A stretch of 35,789 nt of DNA, taken from positions 1-35,789 of IMG/VR virus record IMGVR_UViG_3300031825_000393; one strand, written 5' to 3'. A program made the position numbers and the translations under genes. The notes below the pieces were generated by a model that was given only the letters and a program-made list of their open reading frames with translations, ran no database searches and was not told the DNA's origin. This document shows, piece by piece, positions 10,808-35,697 of this stretch (positions are counted from its first letter, which is position 1; the number at the start of each line of letters is the position of its first letter). Source of the stretch: a virus.

Positions 10808-10809
10808 CG

Positions 10810-14359: not shown

Positions 14360-14907
14360 CCTATCCGTCCATTCTGCCCCCCGCATCGACCGATCTTGAG
14401 AAGGCGCTGGAGCAGGTCGTTGCGCGCCTGCTCGACATCGCCGTGTTGGTGAGGGAAGTCTGGTCGCCAACCAACTGCCCCAGCGCGCTGTTGCCATGGC
14501 TGGCGTGGGGCCTGTCGCTCGATAACTGGTCGAGCGATTGGCCGGAAGGCATCAAGCGCGAGCGCGTCCGCAAGGCCATCTCCATCGCACGCCAGAAGGG
14601 CACGGCAGCATCCGTGCGCGGTGTCGTCCAGAGCTTTGGCGGCTCGGTCGCAATTCGCGAATGGTGGCAGATGGAGCCGAAAGGCGACCCTTTCACATTC
14701 AGCCTTGTCCTCAATCTTGACCAGAACGGCGCGCCCGCATCGGCGGCCTTTGTCGATCAGGTCATCGCAGAAGTCAGCCGCGCCAAGCCGGTGCGCAGCC
14801 ACTTCACCTTCACCCAGGGCATCACCGCGAAGGCCAGCATCGGCCTGATCGCGGCTGTTCGCCCGACCATCTACGCCCGCCTGTCCTGCACGGCACCGGC
14901 GGCCTGA
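14356..14907 (+). CDS. I: Tail/baseplate protein, P2 gpI family
   Basis: Baseplate protein that links the wedge to the fibres. The 183-residue product has the gpI hallmarks: SILPPASTDLEKALEQVVAR near the start, CPSALLPWLAWGLSLDNWS, and a KGTAASVRGVVQSFGG segment followed by WWQMEP. P2 gpI has about 176 residues. It overlaps J and precedes the fibre gene by 11 bp, as in P2. Confidence 0.94.
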   Translation: MTYPSILPPASTDLEKALEQVVARLLDIAVLVREVWSPTNCPSALLPWLAWGLSLDNWSSDWPEGIKRERVRKAISIARQKGTAASVRGVVQSFGGSVAIREWWQMEPKGDPFTFSLVLNLDQNGAPASAAFVDQVIAEVSRAKPVRSHFTFTQGITAKASIGLIAAVRPTIYARLSCTAPAA

Positions 14908-14918
14908 CCGGAGGAATC

Positions 14919-18150: not shown

Positions 18151-18200
18151 GAGTTCCCTCCGTGGCTTGCCGCGTCGGGACATCGTGCAGGATTTCCTAC

Positions 18201-19019
18201 ATGTCTACCCCCTTTGTTCTCGTTCGCCCCGTTTCGCCCGTCGCCGGATATATCGGCGGAAAGCGCAACCTTTCCCGGCGGATATGCGCCATCATCGATA
18301 GCATCCCGCACAGCAGCTATGCGGAGCCGTTCGTGGGCATGGGCGGCATCTTTCTGCGCCGCACGCGCCGCCCCCGCGCCGAAGCGATCAACGACATTTC
18401 CGGCGACGTCGCGACGCTGTTCCGCTGCCTTGCGGAGCATTATCCCTATCTGATCGACATGCTGCGATTCCGCGTTGCAAGCCGCGCCGAGTTCGAACGG
18501 CTGCTGGGGCAGGATCCCGACCGCCTGACCGACCTGCAGCGCGCGGTGCGCTTCCTCTACGTCCAGCGCCTCGCATTCGGCGGCAAGGTAAGGGGCCGGG
18601 GCTTTGGCGTCGATGCAGCATCCCCGGCGCGGTTCGACGTCGGCAAGATCGAACCCATGCTGGCAGAAGTGCATGAACGCCTGCAATCCGTCGTCATAGA
18701 GCGCCTGCCCTATGGCGAATTCATCCGCCGCTATGACCGCGACGGCGCGCTGTTCTACCTCGATCCGCCCTATTGGGCGTGCGAGCGCGACTATGGCGCG
18801 GACGTTTTCGGGCGCGACGACTTCGCCGCGCTCGCCGATCAGCTGGCCGGGATCAAGGGCCGCTTCCTGATGTCGCTCAATGACAATCAGGGCGTGCGCG
18901 ACACCTTCGCCCGCTTCACCATCGCGCCGATCGAGACCACCTATAGCGTGGGCGGCAAGCCGACGAAGGCCGGGGAAGTCTTGATCAGCAATTTCCCGCT
19001 GCCCGCGAACGACGTCTGA
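18201..19019 (+). CDS. Dam-type adenine-N6 DNA methyltransferase
   Basis: Adenine methyltransferase of the D12 class, likely to protect phage DNA from host restriction or alter regulation; the recognition sequence cannot be read here. The 272-residue product has YIGGKR (17-22), FVGMGG (44-49, cofactor binding) and the catalytic DPPY (188-191), in the order of the Dam family. The ATG at 18201 follows AGGA at a suitable distance; the frame to 18162 is less likely. It stands alone between a terminator (18128-18150) and late dyad 3 (19035-19058), so it is an accessory gene. Confidence 0.92.
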   Translation: MSTPFVLVRPVSPVAGYIGGKRNLSRRICAIIDSIPHSSYAEPFVGMGGIFLRRTRRPRAEAINDISGDVATLFRCLAEHYPYLIDMLRFRVASRAEFERLLGQDPDRLTDLQRAVRFLYVQRLAFGGKVRGRGFGVDAASPARFDVGKIEPMLAEVHERLQSVVIERLPYGEFIRRYDRDGALFYLDPPYWACERDYGADVFGRDDFAALADQLAGIKGRFLMSLNDNQGVRDTFARFTIAPIETTYSVGGKPTKAGEVLISNFPLPANDV

Positions 19020-19034: not shown

Positions 19035-19058
19035 ATTTGGATAGCCCCCTGTCCAAAT
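19035..19058. promoter_or_regulatory. Late-operon dyad 3, before gene V
   Basis: ATTTGGA (19035-19041), spacer TAGCCCCCTG (one base different from the other two copies) and TCCAAAT (19052-19058). Here the arms extend to 13 bp (CCCTGCATTTGGA, 19029-19041, with its complement at 19052-19064). The centre is about 55 bp before the start of gene V. Confidence 0.75.
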
Positions 19059-19101
19059 GCAGGGCCGCGAAAGGTCTGAGCGCCCGCGCCATGGTCCGCG
19101 C

Positions 19102-19638
19102 ATGGCAAGCACCCAAGATCCCGAACAGCAGGTCGGTGAAGCGATCCAGTATGGCGTGATCGCAACCGTCGATTATGCCAATGCCACCTGCACCGTCACG
19201 CTGGGCGACCTGACCACGGGCGAACTGCCGTGGGTGGCCCAGCGCGCGGGCGGGATGCGCTACTGGTCGCCGCCCACTGTCGGGGAACAGTGCGTCGTGC
19301 TGGCCCCGGAAGGTGATCTGGAAAACGGGCTGGTCGTTCTGGGCCTCTATTCCGACGACAACCCACCGCCGTCCAATGATCCCGATGTCGTTCAGATCGA
19401 CATGCCCGATGGCGCGTCGTTCAGCTACAACCATGCCACCCACGTCCTCGCTATCACGCTCCCCGCAGGCGGCACGGCCACGGTTGACGCCCCCGGCGGC
19501 ACCACATGGACCGGCGACATCAACCTTAGCGGCACTCTGACCGCCACGACGGACGTTATCGGCGGCGGCAAGAGCCTCAAGGGTCACAAGCACAGCGGCG
19601 TGCAGGCTGGCAGCGCGCAGACCGGGACGCCCGTCTGA
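19102..19638 (+). CDS. V: Baseplate spike protein, P2 gpV family
   Basis: Membrane-piercing spike at the tail tip. The 178-residue product has an N-terminal OB-fold region (IATVDYANATCTVTLGDLTTGELPWV, GMRYWSPPTVGEQCVVLAPEGDLENGLVVLGLY), a beta-helix-like repetitive part (about 95-150) and a C-terminal GHKHSG with His162 and His164. The same HxH motif binds iron at the P2 gpV tip. The ATG at 19102 was preferred over a frame beginning at 19057, which would start inside the late dyad. P2 gpV is longer (about 211). Confidence 0.93.
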   Translation: MASTQDPEQQVGEAIQYGVIATVDYANATCTVTLGDLTTGELPWVAQRAGGMRYWSPPTVGEQCVVLAPEGDLENGLVVLGLYSDDNPPPSNDPDVVQIDMPDGASFSYNHATHVLAITLPAGGTATVDAPGGTTWTGDINLSGTLTATTDVIGGGKSLKGHKHSGVQAGSAQTGTPV

Positions 19639-19988
19639 TGGTCGGCATGGCACGCAATAGCGGCGCACCGCTCGATGGCCTCGAACATATCAAGCAATCG
19701 GTGCGAGACATTCTTGCCACCCCGGTCGGCACGCGTGCCGGTCGCCGCGAATATGGTTCCCTGCTGCCCGAACTGATCGACCAGCCCATGACCGCCGCGA
19801 ACATCCTGCGGATCTATGCAGCGTCCGCTGTCGCCGTCTCGCGCAATGAAGATCGCATCCGCCTTCGCCGTGTCGGCCTTGCCGCCGGAGATCGCCCTGG
19901 AGCCGCCACCATCATCCTCGACGCGGACCGGACCGACACCGCCGCCGCGAACGCCCGCACTCGTCTCGTCCTGCCCCTCTCTCTCTAG
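19638..19988 (+). CDS. W: Baseplate protein, P2 gpW family
   Basis: Baseplate wedge protein of the gp25 lysozyme-like fold. The 116-residue product equals P2 gpW (115) in length and shows DGLEHIKQSVRDILATPVGTRAGRREYGSLLPELIDQPM, the classic gp25/gpW core. It starts in the TGATG overlap with gene V. In P2 W is followed by J and I; here it is followed by the sheath gene. Confidence 0.94.
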   Translation: MVGMARNSGAPLDGLEHIKQSVRDILATPVGTRAGRREYGSLLPELIDQPMTAANILRIYAASAVAVSRNEDRIRLRRVGLAAGDRPGAATIILDADRTDTAAANARTRLVLPLSL

Positions 19989-20003
19989 CCCAAGGAGCCT
20001 GAC

Positions 20004-21179
20004 ATGCCCTTTAAGCATGGAATCACCGTTACCGAGATCAGCGAAGGCGCACGCACGCTGACCGCCGTATCCACCGCCATCATCGGCTTGGTCGCCACCG
20101 CGTCCGACGCCGACGCCGACGTCTTTCCGCTCGATCGCCCTGCGCTGGTGACGGATGTTGAAGCCGCGATCGGCGATGCGGGTGTGCTGGGTACGCTGGC
20201 GAAGTCCCTGCGCGCCATCGCCGACCAGACCCGCCCCATCATTGTCGTTGTCCGCGTCGCGGAAGGCGACGACGCCGCCGAAACCGCCACCAACGTCATC
20301 GGCACCACGGACGGAACGGGCCAGAAGACCGGGATGCAGGCGCTGCTGGCCGCGCAGGCGCAACTGGGCGTCAAGCCGAAGATCCTCGGCACGCCGGGTC
20401 TTGAAACGCAGGCGGTAACGGCGGCGCTGGCTGTCGTGGCGCAGAAGCTGCGCGGCTTTGCCTATGCCCGCGCGATCGGCGAAACCGTTGCCGCCGCGAC
20501 GCTGTATCGCGCCAATTTCAGCGCCCGCGAACTCATGCTGCTGATGCCCGATTTCCTCGCATGGGATACGGCCACCAGCGCCAATGTTACCAGCTACGCT
20601 GCCGCCCGCGCCATGGGTATGCGCGCGCTGATCGATGAAACCGTTGGGCCGCACAAGACCCTGTCCAATATCGCGGTGCAGGGCGTCGTCGGCCTGACCA
20701 AGGATATTCATTGGGATATTGAGGATGCGGGAAGCGAAGCGGGGCTGCTCAATGCGGCGGAAGTGACGGCGCTGGTCCGCACCGACACCGGCTATCGCTT
20801 CTGGGGCAACCGGACCACGGCGGACGCGGACAGCCTGTTCGTCTTTGAAAGCACGGTCCGCGTCGCGCAGCTGCTGGCCGACACGATCGTCAACGGCATG
20901 ATGTGGGCTATCGACAAGCCCCTGACCCCGGCGCTGGCGAAGGACATCATCGAGACGATCAACGGCTTCTTCCGCCAGTTGAAGGCGCAGGGGATCATCC
21001 TCGGCGCGAATGCATGGTTCGATGAGGCGAACAACAGCACGGCCAGCCTCAAGGCGGGCAAGCTGCGCATCGACTATGACTACACCGTCCCGCCGCCGCT
21101 GGAAGATCTCGGCTTCAACCAGCGCATCACGGACAGCTATTTCGCCGACTTCGCGAGCCAGCTGGCCGAAACGGTCTGA
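20004..21179 (+). CDS. FI: Tail sheath protein, P2 gpFI family
   Basis: Contractile sheath subunit. The 391-residue product is close to P2 gpFI (396). It starts with FKHGITVTEISEGAR and contains TAIIGLVATASDAD, the DRPALVTD segment, and C-terminal FGNRTT-like FWGNRTTADADSLFVFESTVRVAQLLADTI and GKLRIDYDYTVPPPLEDLGFNQRIT. AAGGAG precedes the ATG. The sheath-tube order FI-FII is kept. Confidence 0.95.
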   Translation: MPFKHGITVTEISEGARTLTAVSTAIIGLVATASDADADVFPLDRPALVTDVEAAIGDAGVLGTLAKSLRAIADQTRPIIVVVRVAEGDDAAETATNVIGTTDGTGQKTGMQALLAAQAQLGVKPKILGTPGLETQAVTAALAVVAQKLRGFAYARAIGETVAAATLYRANFSARELMLLMPDFLAWDTATSANVTSYAAARAMGMRALIDETVGPHKTLSNIAVQGVVGLTKDIHWDIEDAGSEAGLLNAAEVTALVRTDTGYRFWGNRTTADADSLFVFESTVRVAQLLADTIVNGMMWAIDKPLTPALAKDIIETINGFFRQLKAQGIILGANAWFDEANNSTASLKAGKLRIDYDYTVPPPLEDLGFNQRITDSYFADFASQLAETV

Positions 21180-21218
21180 TCCCGCCCCCTTTATCCCTTC
21201 ATCACATAGGAGCCAGCG

Positions 21219-21731
21219 ATGGGACTGCCCCGCATCCTCAAGAACATGAATTTTTATAACGAAGGCTTCGCCTATGGCGGCGAGTGCAAGACCGTCAAAC
21301 TGCCGCCCCTCAAGCGCAAGCTGGAGGAGTATCGCGGCGGCGGCATGAACGCCCCGCTCCAGATGGACATGGGCATGGAGGCCATGGAACTCGGCCTGAC
21401 CTTTGGCGGGCCTGTCCGCGACGTCCTGCGCCAGTGGGGCGTTCCCACGGTGGACGGCGTGTATGTCCGCTTCGTCGGCGCATATCAGCAGGACGACAGC
21501 AGCGCCGTCGATACCGTCGAGGTCATCGTGCGGGGTCGATATTCCGAGATCGACCCCGGCGATCAGGAGGTCGGAGAACCGGGCGAGTTCGCCGCGACGA
21601 TGGCGCTCGCCTATTACAAGCTGGTCTGGAACGGGCGGACGGAAATCGAGATCGACCCGATCAACATGGTCGAGATCGTGGGCGGCGTGGATCGCACCGC
21701 CGAACTGCGCGCCGCCATCGGCATGTTCTGA
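21219..21731 (+). CDS. FII: Tail tube protein, P2 gpFII family
   Basis: Major tail tube subunit. The 170-residue product matches P2 gpFII (172). Typical segments are LPRILKNMNFYNEGFAYGGECKTVKLPPLKRKLEEYRGGGMNAPL and the C-terminal YYKLVWNGRTEIEIDPINMVEIVGGVDR. TAGGAG precedes the start. Confidence 0.95.
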   Translation: MGLPRILKNMNFYNEGFAYGGECKTVKLPPLKRKLEEYRGGGMNAPLQMDMGMEAMELGLTFGGPVRDVLRQWGVPTVDGVYVRFVGAYQQDDSSAVDTVEVIVRGRYSEIDPGDQEVGEPGEFAATMALAYYKLVWNGRTEIEIDPINMVEIVGGVDRTAELRAAIGMF

Positions 21732-21788
21732 TCCCTGCGGCCCGGCGCTCATCGTCGGGCCGCCCTTCCCTGAAATCTGGAGAGTATC

Positions 21789-22097
21789 ATGAGCGACACC
21801 ACCGATCCCCTGTTCCGCACCGTATCCCTCGACGCGCCGATCGTGCGCGGCGAAACCTCGATCGAGGAATTGAAACTGCGCAAGCCCCGTTCCGGCGAAC
21901 TGCGCGGCCTTTCGCTGGTCGATCTGGGCCAGCTGAAGGTGGACAGCCTGACCAAGCTGCTGCCCCGGATCTCCATGCCCACCCTGACCGAAGCCGAAGT
22001 CGGCAATATGGAACCGGCGGACCTGCTGGCCTGCGGTGCGGAGATCGGGAGTTTTTTGCTTCAGAAGTCGCAGCGTGCGGCTGTCCTCGATCAGTAG
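21789..22097 (+). CDS. E: Tail assembly chaperone, P2 gpE family
   Basis: Chaperone for tape-measure-guided tube assembly. The 102-residue product contains IVRGETSIEELKLRKPRSGELRGLSLVDL, the usual gpE core. Near its end the reading frame passes a T TTT TTG slippery heptamer at 22052-22058, so a portion of ribosomes should shift into the overlapping E' frame. P2 uses the same signal. The unshifted product ends SFLLQKSQRAAVLDQ. Confidence 0.92.
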   Translation: MSDTTDPLFRTVSLDAPIVRGETSIEELKLRKPRSGELRGLSLVDLGQLKVDSLTKLLPRISMPTLTEAEVGNMEPADLLACGAEIGSFLLQKSQRAAVLDQ

Positions 22098-22237
22098 ATG
22101 ACGCGATGGCGGACGTGGCGATCATCTTCCATTGGTCGCCCGCCGTCATGGACGGAATGGATCTGTCCGAACTGATGGGCTGGCGCGAGCAGGCCGCCCG
22201 TCGATCGAAACCCCCTGAAAAGCCCGGAAAGCGATAA
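21789..22237 (+). CDS. Frameshifted tail chaperone E-E'
   Basis: Joined product of a -1 frameshift at TTTTTTG (22052-22058): 90 residues in the E frame and then 59 in the -1 frame (starting at 22058 and ending at TAA 22235-22237), 149 in all. The -1 frame encodes DDAMADVAIIFHWSPAVMDGMDLSELMGWREQA-type sequence, the GpE/E' family, with the FHW motif. Splitting E' off as an independent gene at ATG 22106 is possible but less likely, because the heptamer is exactly placed. In P2 the E+E' fusion has about 142 residues. Confidence 0.85.
22052..22058 (+). promoter_or_regulatory. Slippery heptamer for -1 frameshift
   Basis: TTTTTTG read as T TTT TTG in the E frame, the same heptamer as in P2 gene E. 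The -1 frame is open from here to 22237. Confidence 0.85.
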
Positions 22238-24717
22238 TGGCGGACAAGAATCTTCGGCTCCAGATCATCCTTGAGGCGCTGGACAAGGTCACATCGCCCC
22301 TGAAATCCATTACCGGCGCGTCGTCCGCCGCGCGCCGCGATCTGGCAAAGACGCAGGAGGAACTGAAATCGCTCGGTGCCCTGCAAAAGCAGGTCGGCAG
22401 CTACAAGGCGGCGGAAAACCGCTTCGCCGATGACAGCCGGAAATATCAGGAGGCGCAGGTCCGGCTTGCTGCCTTGCGGGAACAGCTGGAGGCGACGGAA
22501 AAGCCCACCAAGAAGCTGCGCGACGAATTCGCGCGGACCGAAAAGCAGGCCGCCGCGCTGACCGCGCGCCTCGACAGCAACGGCGCGGAATTACAGCAGC
22601 TGGCGGGCAAGCTATCCGCCGCTGGGATCGACGTGGGCGAACTCGCCGCCCATGAAGATCGCCTTGCCCAGCGCACCGTAGAAGCTAACCAGGCGCTACG
22701 CCAGCAGACCGCCCAGCTGGAGAAAGTGGCGAAGGCAAACCGCAATTCGGAAAAACTGAATGAGGTCAGCCAGAAGGCGACGGGCATGGGCCTCGGCATG
22801 GTCGCCGCAGGCACCGCCGCCGGTGCGCCGATCGTCATGGCGACCAAGCAGGCGATGACGCTGGAAAGCGCCATGGCCGACGTCCGCAAGGTGGTGGATT
22901 TTTCCACGCCCGAAGCCTTCAACAAGATGTCCAACGACATTTTGGAGATGAGCACGCGGATCCCGATGGCGGCGGAAGGCATTGCCCAGATCGTCGCCGC
23001 CGCTGGCCGCGCCAATGTGCCGCGTGAGGAACTGATGCGCTTCGCCGAAGATGCGGCGAAAATGGGCGTCGCGTTCGACAGCACCGCAGAAGATGCGGGC
23101 AATACCATGGCGAAATGGCGCACCGCGTTCGGCTTGCCGCAGGATGGCGTCGTGGCGCTGGCTGACCAGATCAACGCCCTGACCAACAGCTTCGGCGGCA
23201 ATGTCGGGGCTGTGACCGACATGGTGACGCGCATCGGCCCGTTGGGCAAGGTGGGCGGCCTCGCTGCCGCCCAGATCGCGTCCATGAGCCAAGTCCTGTC
23301 CAGCGTCGGCGTGGAATCGGAAATCGGCGCGACCGGCATCAAGAATATGATGCTGGCGCTCACCAAGGGCACGTCGGCCACGAAATCGCAGCAGGGCGCG
23401 CTCAAGGCGTTGGGGCTGGATGCGGTGCAAATGTCGAAGGACATGCAGAAGGATGCCGGGGGCGCGATCACCAACGTCCTAGAGCGGATCCAGAAGCTGC
23501 CGAAAGAGGCCCAGGCCGGGATGCTGACCGAACTGTTCGGCTCCGAAAGCGTCGCCGCTATCGCGCCGATGCTGACCAGCCTCGACCAGCTGAAAACGAA
23601 TTTCGCCATGGTCGGCGACAGGAGCAAATATGCAGGCTCCATGAACAAGGAATTCCTGTCGGCCATCGCCACCACGGAAGGGGCGACCGGCTTGGCGGGC
23701 AACGCCCTGTCGGCGCTCAACATCACCATGGGCCAGTTCCTGCTGCCCACCATCGTCAAGGTGTCGGGCTACGTCTCGAAAGCGGCTGTGGCGGTGCGTG
23801 GCTGGGCGCAGGAACATCCGGTGCTGGCGAAGGGCATCATGATATTCATGGGCGCGGGGGCCGCGCTGCTGATCCTGCTCGGCGGCCTCGCACTGGCCTT
23901 CGCCGCCCTCACCGCCGCCGCAGCGCCGTTGGGCATCGCTCTGGGGCCATTGCTGCTGATCGTCGCGGCCATCGCTGCGGTCGCCGCCGCAGCATATCTG
24001 ATCTACGACAATTGGGGCGCCATATCCGCATGGTTCGGCGGCCTGTGGGAAAGCATCAAGGGGATGGTCAGCGGCGCGATCAGCTTCCTGATCAACGCTT
24101 TCCTGACCTTCTCCCCGCTTGGCCTGCTGATCCGCGCCTTCATGCCTGCGCTGGCCTATCTCCAGTCGCTTAATTTTACCGAGATCGGCCGCAACCTGAT
24201 CCAAGGGCTGATTAACGGCGTCTTGGGGATGCTCGGCGCGCTGAAAAGCACCATCGTCAACACGGCCAGTTCCGTCGCCAATTGGTTCAAATCCAAGCTG
24301 GGCATCCATTCGCCGTCCCGCGTCTTCGCCGGGCTGGGCGGGTTCGTCATGGCCGGTCTGGATCAGGGACTTTCCGACAACAGCAGCGGCCCGCTGGATC
24401 GCATCGCCGAACTGTCCGACCGGATGACGAAAGGCTTTTCGGCCAGCCCCATCATTCCGCGGATCATGGATCTGTCGGGGCAGATGGCGAGCGCGATCGG
24501 CGCGGGCACCGCCGGGGCGGCCATGGCCGTCGCATCCCCGGCTGCGGCACAGCAGCCGGCCACTAACCCGACCGCCGCCACCGCGCCCGCACCGGCCACC
24601 TATGAACTGCATTTCCACGGCGTCACCGGCGATCCGCAGGACATCGCCGACAAGGTGCGCGAGGCGATCGAGCAGATCGAGCGCGAGCGGCGCGGGCGCG
24701 GCTTCGGCGACGAATAA
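22237..24717 (+). CDS. T: Tail tape-measure protein, P2 gpT family
   Basis: Sets tail length and is ejected with the DNA. The 826-residue product is near P2 gpT (815). Residues 20-180 are coiled coil (AARRDLAKTQEELKSLGALQKQVGSYKAAENRFADD and following). The conserved tape-measure core lies at about 190-500 (TLESAMADVRKVVDFSTPEAFNKM; GVESEIGATGIKNMMLALTKGT). Two strongly hydrophobic stretches at about 527-560 and 565-590 follow, then KLGIHSPSRVFAGLGGFVMAGLDQG. A Pro/Ala/Thr-rich linker precedes the C-terminal LHFHG segment. It starts in a TAATG overlap with E'. Confidence 0.95.
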   Translation: MADKNLRLQIILEALDKVTSPLKSITGASSAARRDLAKTQEELKSLGALQKQVGSYKAAENRFADDSRKYQEAQVRLAALREQLEATEKPTKKLRDEFARTEKQAAALTARLDSNGAELQQLAGKLSAAGIDVGELAAHEDRLAQRTVEANQALRQQTAQLEKVAKANRNSEKLNEVSQKATGMGLGMVAAGTAAGAPIVMATKQAMTLESAMADVRKVVDFSTPEAFNKMSNDILEMSTRIPMAAEGIAQIVAAAGRANVPREELMRFAEDAAKMGVAFDSTAEDAGNTMAKWRTAFGLPQDGVVALADQINALTNSFGGNVGAVTDMVTRIGPLGKVGGLAAAQIASMSQVLSSVGVESEIGATGIKNMMLALTKGTSATKSQQGALKALGLDAVQMSKDMQKDAGGAITNVLERIQKLPKEAQAGMLTELFGSESVAAIAPMLTSLDQLKTNFAMVGDRSKYAGSMNKEFLSAIATTEGATGLAGNALSALNITMGQFLLPTIVKVSGYVSKAAVAVRGWAQEHPVLAKGIMIFMGAGAALLILLGGLALAFAALTAAAAPLGIALGPLLLIVAAIAAVAAAAYLIYDNWGAISAWFGGLWESIKGMVSGAISFLINAFLTFSPLGLLIRAFMPALAYLQSLNFTEIGRNLIQGLINGVLGMLGALKSTIVNTASSVANWFKSKLGIHSPSRVFAGLGGFVMAGLDQGLSDNSSGPLDRIAELSDRMTKGFSASPIIPRIMDLSGQMASAIGAGTAGAAMAVASPAAAQQPATNPTAATAPAPATYELHFHGVTGDPQDIADKVREAIEQIERERRGRGFGDE

Positions 24718-24730
24718 GGGAGAAGATACC

Positions 24731-24916
24731 ATGCGAGTAAAAGTCGGAGATCAATGGTTTGAGGCAGGCTCCGGATTCCCGGTCATGGTCGAACTCACCC
24801 CAGCTGACCGCAGGAACATTGCGAATATGGCTGAGACCGCGACGCGCTATGCCCTGTTCCATGATGCAGACGCAGCGGTGTCGCCTGATCGCAAATATGA
24901 ATGGATGGCGGAGTAG
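24731..24916 (+). CDS. 61-residue protein between T and U
   Basis: An ATG at 24731 follows GGGAGAAG and opens 61 codons. The product begins MRVKVGDQWFEAGSGFPVMVELT and ends PDRKYEWMAE; it is soluble and acidic. I have seen similar short proteins elsewhere in proteobacterial prophages, but cannot name a family. It lies between the tape measure and gene U, where P2 has none. Confidence 0.6.
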   Translation: MRVKVGDQWFEAGSGFPVMVELTPADRRNIANMAETATRYALFHDADAAVSPDRKYEWMAE

Positions 24917-24921
24917 CGGCT

Positions 24922-25335
24922 ATGCACCTGATGGCGCTGGGCATGTTCCTGTTCGAGATCGGGACGCTGGCCTATGATGAAATGCAGCGGAAAACGGACT
25001 GGCAACATGCCCGGTCCCCCCGCATCGGTGCGCGGGACGCGACGCAATATGTCGGCCCCGGTGATGAAACGATCAGTCTGTCGGGCACGGTCTATGCCGA
25101 GATCGCGGACGGGCGCGTTTCGCTCGATGATCTGCGCACCATGGCGGACGATGGCGAGGCACTGCCGCTGGTCGATGGCAGCGGGACCGTCTATGGCAAT
25201 TTCGTCATTACCGCGCTTGATGAGCGCCATGCCTTCATGATGTCCGATGGCCGGGCCCGTCGCATCGACTTCGGCATAGATCTGCTGCGCGTGGATGATC
25301 CGGCGGCGGCCAACAATGCCCAGGCATCGGCATGA
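24922..25335 (+). CDS. U: Tail terminator/U protein, P2 gpU family
   Basis: Tail protein needed for assembly of the distal end. The 137-residue product begins MALGMFLFEIGTLAYDEMQR, then has GARDATQYVGPGDETISLSGTVY and DDLRTMADDGEALPLVDGSGTVYG, all gpU signatures. The ATG at 24922 fits GGAG at 24909; an earlier ATG at 24901 adds seven residues but overlaps the upstream gene. It overlaps gene D by four bases. Confidence 0.92.
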   Translation: MHLMALGMFLFEIGTLAYDEMQRKTDWQHARSPRIGARDATQYVGPGDETISLSGTVYAEIADGRVSLDDLRTMADDGEALPLVDGSGTVYGNFVITALDERHAFMMSDGRARRIDFGIDLLRVDDPAAANNAQASA

Positions 25336-26342
25336 GCGAGAAGATCAACAATATCGCGGACTGGCGCGTGACGCTCGACGGCACGGATCTGTCCGATCGC
25401 CTGCGCCCACGCCTCGTCTCCCTCTCCCTGTCGGAAAAGCGTGGCGATGAAGCCGATCAGTTGGACATTGTGCTGAACGATACCGACGGCATGTTGGGGA
25501 TCCCGAAGGAAGGCGCGGTGCTGAAAGTGCAGCTGGGCTGGAAACAGGGCCGCGATGTGACCGCCGGTCTGATCGACAAGGGCAGTTTCAAGGTGGACGA
25601 CGTCTCGCACAGCGGCCCGCCCGATCAGATCACGATCAAGGCGCGGGCCGCCGACTTCACCAGCCAGATCCGCAACCGCCGCGAGCAGAGCTGGAAGAAT
25701 ACGACGCTGGGCGCGGTGCTGAAAGACGTCGCGGGCCGGAATGGACTGATGCTCAAGGTCGCGCCCGATCTGGCCTCGATCGCGCTCCCGTCGATCAGCC
25801 AGAGCCGGGAAAGCGACATCGCCTTCTTGCGCCGCCTTGGCCGCGAGCATGACGCCGTGGCGACCATCAAGGACAAGCATCTGATCTTCGCGCGGAAGGG
25901 CGCGGGCACCACGACCAGCGGCAAGGCCATGCCGACCCTGACGATTCGCCGCACTGATGGCGACCGCCATATCTGGCAGCGACAGAAGCGGGACGGTCAG
26001 GAAGGCGTCACGGCCAGCTGGCACGACAAGAAGGGCGCGGCGCGCAAAACCTTCACCGTGGGCAAGGCGGACGGGGCGAAGAAGCTGCGGAAGGTCTATC
26101 CTGACGAGGCGTCCGCGAAGCGCGCCGCTGTCGCGGAACGGGACCGCCTCAAGCGCGCCCCGGCCACGCTGGACATGAAGCTGGCGCTGGGCCGCGCCGA
26201 CGCCATCCCCGAAGCCCGCGTTTCCGTCAGCGGATATAAGGATGAGATCGACGCGACCACATGGCTGATTTCGGAAGTGACGCACCGGCTCGACAAGGCG
26301 GGCGGATTCGTCACTGATCTGAAGATGGAAACCGCACCTTAA
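25332..26342 (+). CDS. D: Late control protein / tail hub gpD
   Basis: Baseplate hub protein, gp27-like fold, that binds the spike and starts tube assembly. The 336-residue product shows the gpD pattern: WRVTLDGTDLSDRLRPRLVSLSLSEKRGDEADQLDIVLND, SGPPDQITIKARAADFTSQIRNRREQSWKNTTLGAVLKDVA, and GRNGLMLKVAP. P2 gpD has about 387 residues. It is the last late gene and runs tail-to-tail into the SEC-C gene, overlapping it by four bases; no terminator hairpin separates them. Confidence 0.94.
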   Translation: MSEKINNIADWRVTLDGTDLSDRLRPRLVSLSLSEKRGDEADQLDIVLNDTDGMLGIPKEGAVLKVQLGWKQGRDVTAGLIDKGSFKVDDVSHSGPPDQITIKARAADFTSQIRNRREQSWKNTTLGAVLKDVAGRNGLMLKVAPDLASIALPSISQSRESDIAFLRRLGREHDAVATIKDKHLIFARKGAGTTTSGKAMPTLTIRRTDGDRHIWQRQKRDGQEGVTASWHDKKGAARKTFTVGKADGAKKLRKVYPDEASAKRAAVAERDRLKRAPATLDMKLALGRADAIPEARVSVSGYKDEIDATTWLISEVTHRLDKAGGFVTDLKMETAP

Positions 26343-27055
26343 GCCGCTCCTTTCCCGCAGCAATACCGGTGCTTTCGTCCAGAACCACAATCACAGAGTC
26401 GATTGCCCAGCCTCTTGAGCCATGCCGCTTCCAATGATTTCAAGGTCTCAAAGCCAATCTGGCGCAAATGCATCTTTTCGATGTGCAGAAGCGGAGAATC
26501 TCCCTCAGGTCCACTGGCGATCCATCCCGCCAAATTCTCATGCGCCAGTTTGTGGTATCGCTCGTCCAATTCTGGATCGACGTGAGCCCCACCATCCTGA
26601 TTGGCGACGATGGTCACGAAATCGCCACGGGTAAGAACAACCCCCTCTGGAGAGCGAAAAACCTCCTCGTGCCACCAATCAGAAAATGGCAGCCATTTTC
26701 CCTTGTGAGGGGGACCTTGGTCGAGAACTGGTACGAACGCTGCCCCGGCGTTGCTGATCCTCATCATTACCAAGGGGTGCCACGCGACCAGATTGCCTGG
26801 ATGCGCCGGGGTGGCATAGGAGGCAAGCGGCGCGTCAGCCATATCTAACTGACCGATAAGGGAATGTGACGACGCACTTGAATAAACAAGAATGCGAATG
26901 GCGAGAGCAATCCGCCTGTATTCAGCCGTATGGCCTTCGTCAAAATCTCTACAAGACCGTTCCAGAAATGTAAGCTGATCCTGAAACTGTAGTTCAAGTG
27001 CACTGAGTGGCACGGGCACGCGCGGCGGCTTCGGCTGTTTGGGCTTCTTGGACAT
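26339..27055 (-). CDS. SEC-C motif protein, accessory
   Basis: A 238-residue soluble protein with a basic start (MSKKPKQPKPPRVPVPLS), a middle segment LTRGDFVTIVANQDGGAHVD and a C-terminal SEC-C zinc motif, CDCGSGRKHRYCC with Cys221, Cys223, Cys232 and Cys233. Proteins with the ANQDGGAHVD phrase are widespread and uncharacterised; the SEC-C end suggests metal or nucleic-acid binding. It is on the opposite strand to the late genes, between gpD and the repressor, has lower GC than its neighbours and is probably cargo. It might be a defence or lysogenic-conversion factor. Confidence 0.75.
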   Translation of the reverse strand: MSKKPKQPKPPRVPVPLSALELQFQDQLTFLERSCRDFDEGHTAEYRRIALAIRILVYSSASSHSLIGQLDMADAPLASYATPAHPGNLVAWHPLVMMRISNAGAAFVPVLDQGPPHKGKWLPFSDWWHEEVFRSPEGVVLTRGDFVTIVANQDGGAHVDPELDERYHKLAHENLAGWIASGPEGDSPLLHIEKMHLRQIGFETLKSLEAAWLKRLGNRLCDCGSGRKHRYCCGKGAA

Positions 27056-27775: not shown

Positions 27776-28321
27776 TCAGGTGCGCGACGATGGTGCAGAT
27801 GCGCGATGATCTGTGGCGGGAGATCGAGACGCTTCTGCGCCTACAGGCGATGGAGCCGCGTGTGGATCAAGCACGAGAGGTCCACACGCTGCGATGCCAG
27901 ATGGAAGCCGTCGAGCGAGAATTTCAGCGGCTTCGTCCTTTGTCGCCCCTTCTGGCACCAGCACTAGCAGGCTGCGGAACATATCGCGCAGCGCAGTTTC
28001 ACTAGGCAAAGCGAGCGGCATCGAAACATATTGCACCTGAGGCTGGGCCGCCTCGATTGCGTTGCCTTCGGGCTCCGCCTCGCCCTCATTCAGCCCGGCC
28101 AGCTTCATGACCTCCGCTGCGTCGATTCCATGCGAGGCCAGCACGGACGCTATTTTCCGCGTTAGGTCGATGGGAAGGAAAGATTTTTTGTAATCGTAAG
28201 TACTTTCATACCGGGCGTATGACCCCAATGGCATCTCCAACGCATCGGCCATCGCACGCACTGTTAGGCGAGGAACCGCAGATTTCCGCAGTTCTTTGAG
28301 TTTCGTTGCAACCTTTTCCAT
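27776..28321 (-). CDS. Helix-turn-helix prophage repressor
   Basis: Probable lysogeny repressor. The 181-residue product has an N-terminal helix-turn-helix (about residues 18-40, LTVRAMADALEMPLGSYARYES) and a long low-complexity C-terminal part with LPSETALRDMFRSLLVLVPEGATKDEAAEILARRL. No LexA-type peptidase Ser/Lys pair was seen, so induction probably works by another route. It is transcribed away from the early operon, and the 86-bp gap holds repeated operator-like sequences. P2 C is much shorter (about 99). Confidence 0.82.
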   Translation of the reverse strand: MEKVATKLKELRKSAVPRLTVRAMADALEMPLGSYARYESTYDYKKSFLPIDLTRKIASVLASHGIDAAEVMKLAGLNEGEAEPEGNAIEAAQPQVQYVSMPLALPSETALRDMFRSLLVLVPEGATKDEAAEILARRLPSGIAACGPLVLDPHAAPSPVGAEASRSPATDHRASAPSSRT

Positions 28322-28407: not shown

Positions 28408-28701
28408 ATGATACAGGGTGATGCATTGTTCGGGATTTGGGGTGGCGTGCGCAAGATGGCGCGCGATCTCAACCGCCCCGCTTCAACCGTCCACGGTTGG
28501 AAGAAGGAGGGACGGGTTCCGGCCAATGAGCAGCAGCATGTGCTTCAAATTGCCGAAGAACTCGGCCTGCCCATCACCGCTGATCATGTCGTGTTCCCTC
28601 TGGGTCGGCCCAATGCCGCCGCCCCTGTTGAACTAACGGAAATGCCCATTGGCGTCGCTTGCGATCGGGCACCGGAAACGCAACGAAAGGACGTCCACTG
28701 A
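28408..28701 (+). CDS. Cro-like carph-isopro domain regulator
   Basis: First gene of the early operon. The 97-residue product contains the carph-isopro helix-turn-helix: FGIWGGVRKMARDLNRPASTVHGWKKEGRVP (about residues 8-38) and the following HVLQIAEELGLPITADHVVFP. It is expected to act like Cro against the divergent repressor. The ATG at 28408 is chosen over 28369 because the -35 lies between them; there is no Shine-Dalgarno, so leaderless initiation is possible. It overlaps the next gene by one base. Confidence 0.85.
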   Translation: MIQGDALFGIWGGVRKMARDLNRPASTVHGWKKEGRVPANEQQHVLQIAEELGLPITADHVVFPLGRPNAAAPVELTEMPIGVACDRAPETQRKDVH

Positions 28702-28985
28702 TGACAGTCATCAGCATGCCCGCGCGCAAGTGCGGCAAGTCTTTCTCGCACGTCGAGAAGATCGAAATCGGCCTGCTCAACGCTCTTTTCGATGCCGGTC
28801 ATCCCCTGACGGTGACGGATCTCGAAACGAAGCTGCGCTGCCACCGCCGCGACCTGTTGCGCGCCATCACCGCGCAATATCGCCTTGGCAACGTCCGCAA
28901 GGGCCAGCCTGTCGAACTCACCACTTCCGGCCATATCGCCGTTGCAGCTGGGCGCTATGCAGGCGCGGTGGCGGTGGCAGCATGA
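28701..28985 (+). CDS. Small early protein with winged-helix-like core
   Basis: A 94-residue product with the segment KIEIGLLNALFDAGHPLTVTDLETKLRCHRRDLLRAITAQYRLGNVRKGQPVELTTSGHIAVAAG, which reads as a winged helix: helix, turn, recognition helix, then two strands. It may be a DNA-binding regulator of the early operon; no specific family is recognised. The start at 28701 overlaps the preceding stop, and the following gene begins in its stop. Confidence 0.75.
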   Translation: MTVISMPARKCGKSFSHVEKIEIGLLNALFDAGHPLTVTDLETKLRCHRRDLLRAITAQYRLGNVRKGQPVELTTSGHIAVAAGRYAGAVAVAA

Positions 28986-29179
28986 GCCGTCCCGAATATC
29001 GGCTGCGCGGGCAATATGTCGCGCGTCACACCTTCACGGTGCCGGAAGAACTCACCGCCCTGCGCGACGAACCGGCCCCGACGCCGCAGCTGCCGCGCTG
29101 GTATAGCCTCGCCGCTTTTCTCATCATGAGCAGCGCCACGATCTTCGCCATGTGCGCCATGGGGAGGCCGGGAGCATGA
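28982..29179 (+). CDS. Small single-span membrane protein
   Basis: A 65-residue early protein with a soluble N-terminal half (SRPEYRLRGQYVARHTFTVPEEL) and a hydrophobic span at about residues 42-61 (YSLAAFLIMSSATIFAMCA). It overlaps both neighbours by four bases (ATGA), which supports it as a real gene. The function is unknown; it might serve as an exclusion or host-takeover factor. Confidence 0.7.
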   Translation: MSRPEYRLRGQYVARHTFTVPEELTALRDEPAPTPQLPRWYSLAAFLIMSSATIFAMCAMGRPGA

Positions 29180-29439
29180 CAGAACGCGCTGCGCCCCTCG
29201 ACAGCCAAACCCGCGAACTCGCATGGCGGGAATGCCTCACTTCCGCACGCAAATCCCTCCAGTTCGCGGCGGGCTGCGTTCCACCCACCAGCCTTGCCCG
29301 CTCGATCATCGACCACGACATAGAGCGGATCGATGCTCTGTTGAAGGATGCGGCAGCCCTCGTTCATCAGGCCGATTGCATTTCGTTCTCCGTTGCGTCG
29401 CCGGGGCCGTGCGATTGCAACGCCGGGGAGCGCAAATGA
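29176..29439 (+). CDS. Small hypothetical early protein
   Basis: An 87-residue soluble product (MTERAAPLDSQTRELAWREC onward) that is mainly helical, with Cys residues near the C-terminus (CDCNAGE). It is coupled to both neighbours by four-base overlaps. No family is recognised. Confidence 0.68.
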   Translation: MTERAAPLDSQTRELAWRECLTSARKSLQFAAGCVPPTSLARSIIDHDIERIDALLKDAAALVHQADCISFSVASPGPCDCNAGERK

Positions 29440-29906
29440 CGAAGGTCCGCGCCCCTCTGTCCTTTTCCCTCGCCATCACCACGGCTGTCGGCCTGATTGG
29501 CTGGGATCAGGCCGCGAAGATCACCCGGCGGTCGAAGCGGGCTGTCCGCTATTGGAGCGAGAGCGACAAGGCCAGCCTGCCCACGCTCGATCAGGCCATT
29601 ACCCTTGACCGGCAATTCATGGCTTTGGGCGGCGGCTTCGCGCCGATCCTCGAAAGCTATGCGCGGCAACTGGACATTTCGCTGCTCGATACGCTGGCTT
29701 GCCGCGAGGCGCTGGCCGACGACATCGCCCAGGCAACGCAGGAATCGGCGGGCGCGATCAGCAGCAGCATCCATGTGACGTTGCCCGGCTCAACGCCCAC
29801 CGAGATCTATCACGCCATCAAAGAGACTGAGGAAGCCAGCGGGGCCATGAACCGGCTGCTGACCCGTCTAAAATCCTTTCTGCCCGGCAATGGTGCCGCG
29901 CAGTGA
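29436..29906 (+). CDS. Early operon protein with HTH-like N-terminus
   Basis: A 156-residue protein. Residues 10-45 (SLAITTAVGLIGWDQAAKITRRSKRAVRYWSES) look like a helix-turn-helix of the type that senses a target and then a substrate, and TLDQAITLDRQFMALGGGFAPILESYARQLD follows. The C-terminal half is helical with TPTEIYHAIKETEEASGAMNRL. It probably regulates early or late transcription, but a precise family is not recognised. The start overlaps the previous stop; Ogr follows 17 bases after the stop. Confidence 0.7.
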   Translation: MTKVRAPLSFSLAITTAVGLIGWDQAAKITRRSKRAVRYWSESDKASLPTLDQAITLDRQFMALGGGFAPILESYARQLDISLLDTLACREALADDIAQATQESAGAISSSIHVTLPGSTPTEIYHAIKETEEASGAMNRLLTRLKSFLPGNGAAQ

Positions 29907-29923: not shown

Positions 29924-30220
29924 ATGGCGGGACTGCCTCACGTCACTTGTCCGGCCTGCGGGGGCCGTGCCCACTCTAGGGCCGTAGGAAAGAACAGCAC
30001 GCTCTATCGAGAGCTTTATTATCGCTGCCGCAATCCTGACGCCTGCGGCCATGAATTCGTGGTCGAAATGGTCGCGGTGCGCGCCACGAAAGCGAGCCGC
30101 TTTCCCACGCCGCTCGCGGTGCTTCCCCTCACCACATGGCACGCGGCGGCCAATGACCGGGCCGCAGCCAACGATGACGGACCTGATCATGAACCCGCTG
30201 CCGCCGCTGTAGCCGACTGA
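29924..30220 (+). CDS. ogr: Ogr/Delta-family late-gene transcription activator
   Basis: Zinc-finger activator of late promoters. The product has 98 residues from ATG 29924, which follows TGGGGGAAAG; a GTG at 29903 is an alternative. The finger has Cys9, Cys12, Cys35 and Cys41: CPACGGRAHSR, LYRELYYRCRNPDACGHEFV. The C-X2-C-X22-C spacing equals that of P2 Ogr, with one extra residue in the last interval. A Pro/Ala-rich tail follows. In P2 ogr follows gene D; here it is in the early operon between a regulator-like gene and the primase. Its targets are probably the three ATTTGGA dyads. Confidence 0.92.
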   Translation: MAGLPHVTCPACGGRAHSRAVGKNSTLYRELYYRCRNPDACGHEFVVEMVAVRATKASRFPTPLAVLPLTTWHAAANDRAAANDDGPDHEPAAAAVAD

Positions 30221-30318: not shown

Positions 30319-33033
30319 ATGCGTGAAGACATACTCCGCGAAGTCACAGCCCGCCTGATCAAAGACTATAAATTTGCCGAGCGTGGCGACTTCCTGCGCG
30401 AGGGCAAATGTCCCCAGTGCAAGGAAGGAAAGAAGGCGCTCTGGACGCCCGCAGGTCATCCGTGGATTTTGCGCTGCGGGCGCGTCGATAAGTGCGGATG
30501 GGAAGGCGAAACCAAGAAGCTTTACCCTGATATTTTCGATGATTGGTCAAAGCGCTACAAGCAGTCGCCGCAAAACCCAAACGCCGCCGCCGACGCCTAT
30601 CTGATCGCCGCGCGCGGCCTCGACATCACGCCGCTCAAGGGCGCTTACACGCAGGAGCGCTATCACGATCAGGATCTGAACATCGGGTCGGCCACGGTGC
30701 GCTTCCCCATGCCCGGCGGCGGCTATTGGCAGCGCCTGATCGACCAGCCCCACCGCTTCGGCGACAAGAAGGCCACCTTTTCCTATGGCGGCGGCTATCG
30801 TGGGCATGTCTGGACCTATCCCGGCGACACCCCGCAGACGCTGGCCCGCGCCGAAGAAATCTGGATCGCGGAAGGAATCTTCGACACCATCGCCCTGCGG
30901 CAGAATGGCATCGTCGCGGTGTCGGCCATGTCCTGCAACAATTTCCCCAAGCAGTTTCTGGTCGACCTTCGCAAAGCCATTGGCGATGATCCCTTGGCCG
31001 GGGCCGGGCCTCGCCTGATCTTCGCCTATGATCAGGGCGCCGCCGGTGTCGACTATACCATCGCGCATGTCGCCGAAGCCCGGAAGGCTGGCTGGGTTGC
31101 GAGCGCGGCGCAGGTCCAGATGGATGGCGAGGGCGAGAAGCGGGATTGGAACGACCTGCACCAAGCCGATCGCCTCCAATCGCATCACATCGCGAAATAT
31201 CGGTGGGCGGGGGAAGTCACGATCGCGGGCAGCGCCGACGAAAAGGCGTTCCTGATCTACAAGCAGTTTAAGACGGCTTCTTTCCCCCTGATCTTCAACC
31301 AGCGCCAGCTGTGGGCGTCCTTCTCTCTGGAACGGATCGAGAAGATCCTTGAGGAACTGCGGGGCGCTGACCCGACGATCGAAAAGCTGCCCTATCAGGA
31401 ACAGTGGGAAATGGCGGCCAGCAAAGCCGCCGACATTACCGAACTGGCAAACTGCACCTTTCGCACGCTGTATTTCCAGAAGGACGCCCATATTGAGGAG
31501 GGCGCGTATTTCCTCCGCGTCGATTTCCCCCGCGTGAAGGGCCAGCCCCGGCGCGAGACGGTCAAGGCGACCTTCTCCGGTGCCAATCTGTCCGCCGGGG
31601 CCGAATTCAAGAAGCGGCTCGCATCGGTGGCGCACGGCGCGCAATGGACCGGCACGACCGGCCATCTGGACAAGCTGATGCAACGCCAGTGGGCCAGCAT
31701 CCGCTTGGTCGAGGCGATCCAGTTCACCGGATATTCGATCGACCATGAAGCCTATCTGCTGGGCGATCTGGGCGTCAGCAAGGGCAAGGTCGAGAAAGTC
31801 AACGAGGACGATTATTTCGTCTTCTCCCGCAAGGCGGTGAAGCTGCGCACGGCGGATCGACTGTTGAAGATCAGCTATGACGCGGATCGCCTCGATCTGG
31901 ACTGGCTCCAGCCCGTCTTTCAGGCGTGGGGTCCGAAAGGCTATGTCGTCCTGACATTTTGGGTGCTGTCGCTCTTTGCCGAGCAGGTCCGCGCCATGCA
32001 GGATTCCCTTGGCTTCCTCGAAGTGACCGGCCCTCCCGGCACCGGCAAATCCACGCTGATCGCCTTCCTGTGGAAGCTGATGGGCCGCGTCGGCAACTAT
32101 GAAGGCTTCGACCCGACCAAGGCCACCAATGCCGGTATCTCCCGCACCTTGGGGCAGGTCGGCAATCTTCCGGTGGTGCTGATCGAGGGCGACCGCAATC
32201 AGGAAACACCGCACAGTCGCCGGTTCGAATGGGACGAACTGAAAACCGCCTATAACGGTCGCGCCGTCCGCACCCGCGCCATCGCCAACGGCGGCATGGA
32301 AACCTTCGAACCGCCTTTCCGGGGCGCGATTGCCATCGTGCAGAATGATCCGGTCGAGGCGTCCCCAGCGATGCGCGAGCGTATCATGGGCCTGACGATC
32401 GACAAGGCAGGCTGGGGCGAACACACCCGCGAGGCGGCGGAAAAGGTCGCCCGCATCGATCGCGACGACGTCTCAGGCTTCATCGTCCACATCGTCCGCA
32501 AAGAGGCGGAAATCCTGCAATGCTATCGGGAACGCTTCGCCCAGCACCGCGACGCCATGCTGAAACAGCCGGGCATCCGCAATAACCGCTTGGCGCTGAA
32601 CCATGCCCAGCTGGCCGCGATGTTCGACGCCATGCAGATCGTGGTCAACAAAATCCCGAAAGCCGCGGCTGATGCCACGCACGATTTCATCCGGGAAATG
32701 CTGACCGACAGGCAGCGCCTGGTCGAACATGATCATCCCCATGTCGAACTGTTCTGGGAGCGCTTCGACTGGATCGCGGCGCAAGAGAGCGACACTGTCG
32801 TCACCCCGATCGACCACAGCCGCACCGGCGAGGTTTTTGCGATCAACCTTGTGCAGTTCGAGCAGAAATGCGGCGATCTGCGCCTGTCGCTGCCGCCTAT
32901 GAACGAACTCAAGCGGCTGCTGAAAAACAGCAAAGCCCGGAAGTTCCTCGCTCACAAGCCGGTCAATTCCCGCACCGGCAAGACCGTCAACTGCTGGGTT
33001 TTTGCCCGGCCCACCAACACCCCCTCCGCTTAA
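30319..33033 (+). CDS. Toprim primase-helicase
   Basis: Replication protein of 904 residues. Domain order: N-terminal zinc finger (Cys31, Cys34, Cys53, Cys59), Toprim domain with Glu185 in WIAEGIFDT and Asp238 in FAYDQG, a long middle region (about 300-560), then an ATPase with Walker A GPPGTGKS at 571-578, a Walker-B-like PVVLIEGD and an arginine-rich region beyond. It resembles phage primase-helicases rather than the P2 rolling-circle protein A. The ATG at 30319 follows GAGAAG; a TTG at 30298 would add seven residues. The 98-bp gap after ogr holds no gene. Confidence 0.93.
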   Translation: MREDILREVTARLIKDYKFAERGDFLREGKCPQCKEGKKALWTPAGHPWILRCGRVDKCGWEGETKKLYPDIFDDWSKRYKQSPQNPNAAADAYLIAARGLDITPLKGAYTQERYHDQDLNIGSATVRFPMPGGGYWQRLIDQPHRFGDKKATFSYGGGYRGHVWTYPGDTPQTLARAEEIWIAEGIFDTIALRQNGIVAVSAMSCNNFPKQFLVDLRKAIGDDPLAGAGPRLIFAYDQGAAGVDYTIAHVAEARKAGWVASAAQVQMDGEGEKRDWNDLHQADRLQSHHIAKYRWAGEVTIAGSADEKAFLIYKQFKTASFPLIFNQRQLWASFSLERIEKILEELRGADPTIEKLPYQEQWEMAASKAADITELANCTFRTLYFQKDAHIEEGAYFLRVDFPRVKGQPRRETVKATFSGANLSAGAEFKKRLASVAHGAQWTGTTGHLDKLMQRQWASIRLVEAIQFTGYSIDHEAYLLGDLGVSKGKVEKVNEDDYFVFSRKAVKLRTADRLLKISYDADRLDLDWLQPVFQAWGPKGYVVLTFWVLSLFAEQVRAMQDSLGFLEVTGPPGTGKSTLIAFLWKLMGRVGNYEGFDPTKATNAGISRTLGQVGNLPVVLIEGDRNQETPHSRRFEWDELKTAYNGRAVRTRAIANGGMETFEPPFRGAIAIVQNDPVEASPAMRERIMGLTIDKAGWGEHTREAAEKVARIDRDDVSGFIVHIVRKEAEILQCYRERFAQHRDAMLKQPGIRNNRLALNHAQLAAMFDAMQIVVNKIPKAAADATHDFIREMLTDRQRLVEHDHPHVELFWERFDWIAAQESDTVVTPIDHSRTGEVFAINLVQFEQKCGDLRLSLPPMNELKRLLKNSKARKFLAHKPVNSRTGKTVNCWVFARPTNTPSA

Positions 33034-34730: not shown

Positions 34731-35005
34731 GAACCTTCCGCATCAGTGTCACCCAGACCATCGATATTTCGCTCGATGAAACCAAATTTGACGGCCAGTT
34801 CATGGGCGAGTTCCGTCAGCACTTCTTCCCATTCGATACCGTCGAGCAGCACGCCGAGCATCTTGCCCAGCTGTGCGCGCGGGGCGTCTATGATCTCAGC
34901 CCCTATTCCAGCGAATTTGTCGAAGGTTATGGCCTTTCCCTCGACATGGGCATCAAAGCGGTCATCCACTCGACGGATACCGAGTTTGAGGCCGAAATCG
35001 CATGA
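34727..35005 (+). CDS. Hypothetical early protein
   Basis: A 92-residue acidic soluble product starting MRTFRISVTQTIDISLDETKFDG and ending ADTEF-like STDTEFEAEIA. It is coupled to the preceding and following genes by four-base overlaps. No family is recognised, and no membrane segment or metal motif is present. Confidence 0.68.
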   Translation: MRTFRISVTQTIDISLDETKFDGQFMGEFRQHFFPFDTVEQHAEHLAQLCARGVYDLSPYSSEFVEGYGLSLDMGIKAVIHSTDTEFEAEIA

Positions 35006-35697
35006 GCGGCGAACTCACTTCACGCCCGAAGGGCAGCAGCCGCCATCCTTGGGATTGGTATGTTGAGGAAAAATGGGTGACGCATCGCCTGCTCGACATG
35101 ATTGCCCTGGAATCGGACGTCACCTATCTGGATCCCTGCTGCGGCCAGCTGCATATCCCGGAGGCCATGACCGAACGCGGCTTCAATGCCTACGGCACGG
35201 ATTTATTCGACCGCGCCGCCGGGCACCGGCTGTTCATGGGCGAACATGACCTGCTCGGCGACCAGCGCCATCTACTGGAGGCGGGCGGCGGCCTGTCGAT
35301 CATCTTCAACCCGCCATTCTCTTTCCAGAATGGCCGCCTTGTGCGCGGTCTGGCGGAAAAGTGCATCCGCCGCGCCCTGTCGATCGCCTCGCACAAGGTC
35401 TGCGCCCTGCTGCCCCTAAAATGGCTCGCCAGCGAAGGCCGCTACCGGCTTTTCACGGACGAGACGCCGATCGGCGTGTGGATCCTGTGCGAACGGCCCT
35501 CCATGCCCCCCGGCAACATCATCGAGCAGTTGGGCGACAACGCATACGATCATGGCAAGATCGACTATATGTGGGTGGTCTGGGACAAGCGCCGCGCACC
35601 CATGACGGACTTTCAAGGTCGGCCATTCGCCCCGACCTTCTGGATACCTCCCCGCGAGAAGGCCCAGATGGAAAAGCAGTTGAGGTTCGCGGCATGA
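35002..35697 (+). CDS. Putative DNA methyltransferase (NPPF motif)
   Basis: A 231-residue protein with a SAM-binding-like DPCCGQ at residues 44-49, an acidic residue at the end of strand 2 (GTDLFD, Asp67) and NPPF at 103-106, the arrangement of a gamma-type amino-methyltransferase. No separate target-recognition domain is visible. It could protect phage DNA or regulate transcription; the substrate is not readable. It follows an ATGA overlap and precedes an excisionase-like gene. Confidence 0.75.
   Translation: MSGELTSRPKGSSRHPWDWYVEEKWVTHRLLDMIALESDVTYLDPCCGQLHIPEAMTERGFNAYGTDLFDRAAGHRLFMGEHDLLGDQRHLLEAGGGLSIIFNPPFSFQNGRLVRGLAEKCIRRALSIASHKVCALLPLKWLASEGRYRLFTDETPIGVWILCERPSMPPGNIIEQLGDNAYDHGKIDYMWVVWDKRRAPMTDFQGRPFAPTFWIPPREKAQMEKQLRFAA

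Follow-up and report, generated by a model that had tools for sequence, protein, structure and literature searches.

A CX5C Ogr-type zinc finger and an ATTTGG-N12-CCAAAT dyad before the late operons of a P2-like prophage of sphingomonads

The window, by which we mean the whole stretch of 35,789 nucleotides analysed here (positions 1 to 35,789 of IMG/VR record IMGVR_UViG_3300031825_000393), is by its gene content a P2-like (Peduoviridae) prophage of sphingomonads. The Q-P, O-N-M-L, V-W, J-I and F-D structural genes are present (Table 1), and we detected the families of the portal, scaffold, tail terminator, baseplate, sheath and gpD. For N, M, L, X, S, I, W, FII, E, T and U the names are presumptive, given by gene order. 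The J-I-H and V-W blocks are exchanged in order compared with P2, and J-I-H and V-W-F...D are separate, each with its own dyad. Within the late region, S and the J dyad are separated by a gene pair for an HTH protein and an M78 (IrrE-like) peptidase (12158-13059), possibly a moron or a second regulator. Right after D lies a minus-strand gene (26339-27055) whose product ends, by eye, in something like a SEC-C metal-binding motif and which is likely a moron. The tail fibre H (14919-17366) carries repeated GSGLDADLLDGQDGSYYSN-type segments.

Table 1. Genes, operons and candidate regulatory sites in the window
Feature	Position	Strand	Remarks
Late operon P-Q (terminase, portal)	2492-5391	-	Q phrog_68; P from tblastn matches with its homologues in relatives and in annotated phages
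CATGGT, candidate -10 of P late promoter	5400-5405	-	putative
Dyad 1, ATTTGG-N12-CCAAAT	5438-5461		P/O gap, common to the divergent P and O late operons
Late operon O-N-M-L-X-lysis-R-S	5555-11996	+	O phrog_73, R phrog_65; other names by order
Dyad 2, ATTTGG-N12-CCAAAT	13397-13420	+	before J-I-H operon
CATGGC, possible -10 of J late promoter (weaker)	13456-13461	+	putative
Late operon J-I-H	13466-17366	+	J phrog_4226; H tail-fibre families
Dyad 3, ATTTGG-N12-CCAAAT	19035-19058	+	before V-W-FI...D operon
CATGGT, candidate -10 of V late promoter	19090-19095	+	putative; -12 to -7 from V start codon at 19102
Late operon V-W-FI-FII-E-T-U-D	19102-26342	+	V phrog_9992, FI phrog_23, D phrog_52
CI-like HTH regulator, divergent from early operon	27776-28321	-	PF13560 E 0.029, phrog_8 E 0.0065 (weak)
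Four early ORFs, first HTH-like	28408-28701, 28701-28985, 28982-29179, 29176-29439	+	overlapping stop/start codons
phrog_38866 protein, no assigned function	29436-29906	+	directly upstream of ogr; overlaps preceding ORF
ogr, Ogr/Delta-type zinc-finger candidate late activator	29924-30220	+	98 aa; PF04606, phrog_603
Primase/helicase downstream of ogr	30319-33033	+	phrog_1139 E 2.2e-285

Using a profile search, we matched the ogr product to Ogr_Delta (E 2.6e-11, 43.7 bits, cut-off 26.3) and, as second family, to the phrog_603 transcriptional regulators (E 2.5e-14); the start codon is preceded by a strong Shine-Dalgarno match. The cysteines C9, C12, C35 and C41 form the motif CX2CX22CX5C, against CX2CX22CX4C given for P2 Ogr (PMC3931495, partial text), and the P2 sequence itself also reads CX4C, which bears out the one extra residue near Cys41 proposed in the first-pass annotation; it lies before that cysteine. 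CX5C is fixed in 48 of 48 close relatives (33 viral and 15 genome loci). We found CX4C in the Ogr of P2, KL3, KS14, FLC5, Acica, Momento, Smp131, Dobby, one Klebsiella phage and one Zymomonas plasmid-prophage, as well as in four other sphingomonad Ogr genes located in host genomes of CX5C relatives. The finger of 186 B is by eye a CX4C followed by another Cys, which a regular expression reads as CX6C, and the same kind of search gave no clean finger for the Ogr-like match of HP1. By profile, the window Ogr is thus a PF04606 member outside the strict P2-type CX2CX22CX4C subgroup. Each of the 19 phage records examined encodes exactly one Ogr. We found no solved structure among Ogr relatives, and the AlphaFold model is poor (pLDDT 61.5) and served for no residue mapping or fold search. 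Two Ogr genes of the window clade (L102 and L106) occur on different contigs of one Croceibacterium xixiisoli genome, thus two such prophages may meet in one cell.

In the window, a packed run of genes starts opposite the CI-like gene; ogr comes sixth in it, 17 nt behind the phrog_38866 ORF and 98 nt ahead of the primase. Its placement between early regulators and the primase, as first annotated, therefore stands, with the CI-like gene and overlapping early ORFs on one side and the replication gene on the other. The gene overlaps suggest that the early genes and ogr are co-transcribed; we found no consensus sigma-70 promoter in front of the early operon. In all 48 loci of the relatives, ogr has the phrog_38866 gene immediately before it (-1 to 29 nt from the phrog_38866 stop to the first aligned ogr residue). 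D is found upstream of ogr by 2.0-7.2 kb on the same strand in 41/41 loci that hold D, and a minus-strand CI homologue separates the two in 14/14 loci where both D and a CI homologue were detected. Gene positions thus place ogr beyond the repressor on its early side, near the early genes and in their direction. Because the positions of phrog_38866, D and CI are kept and each record has one Ogr, ogr appears to be stably an early-operon gene in these phages. Three loci with more than 3 kb downstream of ogr (L016, L017 and L018) have no match to the window primase behind it; here the replication gene appears to have been exchanged while the phrog_38866-ogr pair stayed. In an unannotated human faecal record of 10336 bases (MT836451.1), a primase 59% identical to that of the window is accompanied by an Ogr-like match. 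A second phage DNA methyltransferase (phrog_799) closes the early region of the window (35002-35697).

The first-pass annotation had regarded this location as a special relocation that changes the timing logic of the phage. We found no support for this reading: the early-side location occurs in 48/48 close relatives and in seven named phages of Burkholderia, Acidovorax, Stenotrophomonas and Pseudomonas. Burkholderia KL3, KS14, FLC5 and Momento and Acidovorax Acica have Ogr flanked by the repressor on one side and the primase or replication gene on the other, and the position of the PF04606 match indicates the same side in Smp131 (Stenotrophomonas) and Dobby. KS5 gp8 and KL3 gp9 are listed as Ogr (PMC3091744, partial text), and in phiRSY1 an Ogr homologue is followed by eight same-direction ORFs, possibly early genes (PMC5694545, partial text). 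Judged by gene order, an early location of ogr is common outside the laboratory coliphages, and ordinary. In a Klebsiella relative, ogr still lies behind D, as in P2. The premise that P2 expresses ogr from a late position held in part: the gene does sit behind D, but the P2 record also annotates it with its own -35/-10. The timing claim is not new either, because the authors of the K139/Smhb1 study already raised the possibility, from where ogr lies, that late genes are expressed at a different time (PMC8537503, partial text). In the record of coliphage 186, the B promoter is annotated as CI-repressed; direct immunity control of the activator is therefore already known.

We detected ATTTGG-N12-CCAAAT with at most one mismatch at three sites in the window (0.06 expected; none of 100 shuffles reached three), and only at the starts of late operons. 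The unusual dyad noted at first reading is thereby confirmed, with TGG-N12-CCA in place of the P2 TGT-N12-ACA. Matches to the P2-type pattern in the window are at chance level, with zero at late operons. We rejected TTGT-N12-ACAA as the late site of the window: its 10 one-mismatch matches exceed the 4.0 expected and the count in any of 100 shuffles, and none is at a late start. We scanned 24 contigs drawn from the 33 viral contigs of relatives and found the window form (at most three mismatches) in 17, while reversed-pattern controls gave zero. Five of the seven other contigs are short pieces that begin downstream of V and lack that promoter; in G021, 43 nt before V, perfect ATTTGG/CCAAAT arms enclose a spacer that diverges further, and the arms of the remaining contig, G010, are ATCGGG/AGCGGG. 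A scan for the 12-base gap only, at P, V and J of KL3, KS14, FLC5, Acica and the Zymomonas plasmid-prophage and with start codons extrapolated, gave no convincing ATTTGG dyad, which in so limited a scan does not speak for its absence. In the open-licence literature we found no paper on the sphingomonad dyad. A DNA methyltransferase gene (18162-19019, phrog_56) ends 15 nt before the V dyad, and a homologue is found near the V site in several relatives.

Across the sites of one phage, the arms change together and the gap remains at 12 bases. P and V of G030 both carry ATTTCG/CGAAAT, from which its J site (ATTTTG/CGAAAT) differs by one mismatch. In G027 a CCCAAT half is common to P, J and V and the other half varies (ACTGGG, ATTGGG, ATATGG). 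G010 has ATCGGG/CCCGCT at P and J and AGCGGG/CCCGCT at V, and the V dyad of G034 is ATCGGG/CCCGAT. One half of the J dyad of G028 is CCCAAT, thus single mismatches occur within the main arm class. G032 has an ATTTCG P dyad in a genome with three Ogr genes on other contigs, so its dyad-Ogr pair was left unassigned. The genome G037 holds two prophages: the first has a CX5C Ogr and ATTTGG dyads. In the second, a CX4C Ogr goes with GTTGT-N14-ACAAC, which is found at P/O and between V and J and likewise spans 24 bp. Because these two prophages differ in both Ogr type and dyad, the dyad tracks the phage and not the host. The Ogr tree is weakly resolved; the labels on it cluster (7 changes, as low in 0/200 shuffles), with near-copies contributing to this figure. 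Beside the first knuckle there are two candidate residues: Ala13, which goes with the ATCGGG class, and position 8, where T, N or Q occurs. As residues that may set arm choice they are only a lead, with about three switches and with position 8 varying within the main class too.

The distance from the dyad centre to the A of the V start codon is 55.5 nt in 24 of 26 V promoters and 56.5 nt in the other two, and CATGGT occupies -12 to -7 of V in 23 of 26 phages. For J the distance to the start codon is 56.5-57.5 nt (11/11 rows) and for P 57.5-58.5 nt (12/12 rows, after correction of two alignments that began one codon off); O is looser, at 90-108 nt from the dyad end (12 rows). In the 186 record, activator site centres lie 54.5, 57.5 and 58.5 nt from transcript starts, and one site between divergent promoters is 54.5 and 57.5 nt from their starts. 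Likewise, in the P2 record a single site serves P and O, about 55 nt from either start, and the annotation puts the start site of V on its start codon. Shine-Dalgarno scores show no match for V (-1.1) and J (-0.9) and a fair, intermediate one for P (-4.9); FI, FII, E, H and ogr score -6.4 to -9.5, and some internal genes, such as S and U, are also poor. If the site-to-start geometry of P2 and 186 holds here, the V, J and P messages would begin at or no more than about 3 nt before the start codon.

Like P2, the window has the PF04606 finger and a single putative activator site for divergent P and O. The centre of its V dyad lies about 55 nt from the V start codon; in P2 a like distance separates site and transcript start, and the V start site is annotated at the V start codon, as predicted for the window. 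P2 differs in having ogr behind D with its own promoter, a CX4C finger, the consensus TGT-N12-ACA (PMC3931495, partial text) and operons V-W-J-I-H-G and F...D against J-I-H and V-W-F...D in the window. In 186, as proposed for the window, the activator gene is under immunity-repressor control and one B site lies between divergent promoters, but B is located between D and attP behind its own CI-repressed promoter. KL3, KS14, FLC5, Momento and Acica share the early-operon location between repressor and primase or replication gene, but have CX4C fingers, and the N12 scan, run on KL3, KS14, FLC5 and Acica, gave no ATTTGG dyad at P, V or J. Smp131 resembles the window in its late operons, rearranged in the same way with promoters PP', PO', PJ' and PV', and in an Ogr ahead of the primase; it differs in its TGT-N12-ACA-like sites and CX4C finger (for promoters and sites, PMC3931495, partial text). 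The Ralstonia phages phiRSY1/phiRSA1 likewise have an Ogr homologue followed by same-direction, possibly early ORFs, and dyads before late operons, but their dyad is reported as TGTTGT-X13-ACAACA (PMC5694545, partial text). Vibrio K139 and Salinivibrio Smhb1 share a non-P2 ogr location with a proposed change of timing, but in them ogr lies between the portal and replication endonuclease genes (PMC8537503, partial text).

We consider it highly probable, taking the proposal as a whole, that an Ogr from the early operon binds the ATTTGG dyads and drives the late operons, with leaderless or near-leaderless V, J and P. Judging from the gene overlaps, ogr would be the sixth cistron of an early operon under repressor control and would precede the replication gene. 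Homology, together with arm changes that follow Ogr, suggests that a zinc-finger dimer occupies ATTTGG-N12-CCAAAT some 55 bp before the late start sites and would recruit host RNA polymerase to a CATGGT-type -10. Dyad 1 would drive P and O divergently, dyad 2 J-I-H and dyad 3 V-W-F...D. The V, J and P messages are predicted to begin at or 1-3 nt before the start codon and thus to be leaderless or nearly so, and the O message would keep a leader of about 50 nt. Against the proposal as a whole stand the J CATGGC, which ends only 4 nt before the start codon and is too close for a standard -10, the fair Shine-Dalgarno of P, the lack of a sigma-70 consensus before the early operon and the poor Ogr model.

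The dyad might instead be an RNA hairpin near the start of the late messages that acts in processing or translation control and not as an operator. The window 24-mer does pair almost throughout when G-T pairs are allowed, and its distance to the start codon is fixed. When 50 distinct 24-mers are compared, however, Watson-Crick pairing reaches 92-100% at the six outer pairs, where positions 3-5 show symmetric replacements, and only 16-76% at the six inner pairs (26-84% with G-U); moreover, the O and P sides use one common site. Because the outer pairs are kept with compensating changes and the inner pairs are not, we read the pattern in these alignments as that of a protein dyad, and rejected the hairpin, which on the inner-pair counts is very improbable. 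A different phage regulator could be the protein concerned, most likely the phrog_38866 product, with Ogr acting elsewhere or as a co-activator. That protein, to which no function is assigned, is encoded upstream of ogr in 48/48 loci and would change together with the dyad just as Ogr does. We nonetheless judge this improbable, since the dyad lies where the Ogr/B sites lie in P2 and 186, with the same 55-nt geometry, and since within the single host G037 CX4C and CX5C Ogrs go with different gaps and arms.

Even with Ogr as the dyad-binding activator, the early location could truly alter timing, so that late genes come on with early transcription and with no requirement for replication. The packing of the early operon genes would fit this, as would the Smhb1 authors' proposal from ogr location (PMC8537503, partial text), but CI already controls the 186 activator gene directly, with that gene on the D side. 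In P2, as Birkeland and colleagues reportedly found in 1991 in work on ogr timing, late transcription also requires phage DNA replication, even with ogr expressed. We therefore regard such a change of timing as rather unlikely, though less so than a phrog_38866 binder.

The CX5C finger and the ATTTGG dyad are a new variant of the known Ogr system, and the early location of its gene is ordinary; more telling than that location is the paired dyad site before each late operon, changing with the activator. It is possible, though we hold it only tentatively, that these phages form a natural re-targeting series of activator and operator, in which a CX5C Ogr meets at least four arm forms (ATTTGG, ATTTCG, ATTGGG and ATCGGG) with N12 fixed and with V, J and P leaderless. 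The extra finger residue may set a shifted read-out, as with GTTGT-N14 for CX4C and ATTTGG-N12 for CX5C in G037. With matched activators and operators varying within a single group of close phages, Ogr recognition could be worked out by swaps at sites already known. The fixed dyad-to-start spacing predicts leaderless late messages, and the dyad can be used to search Sphingomonadales prophages for late operons.
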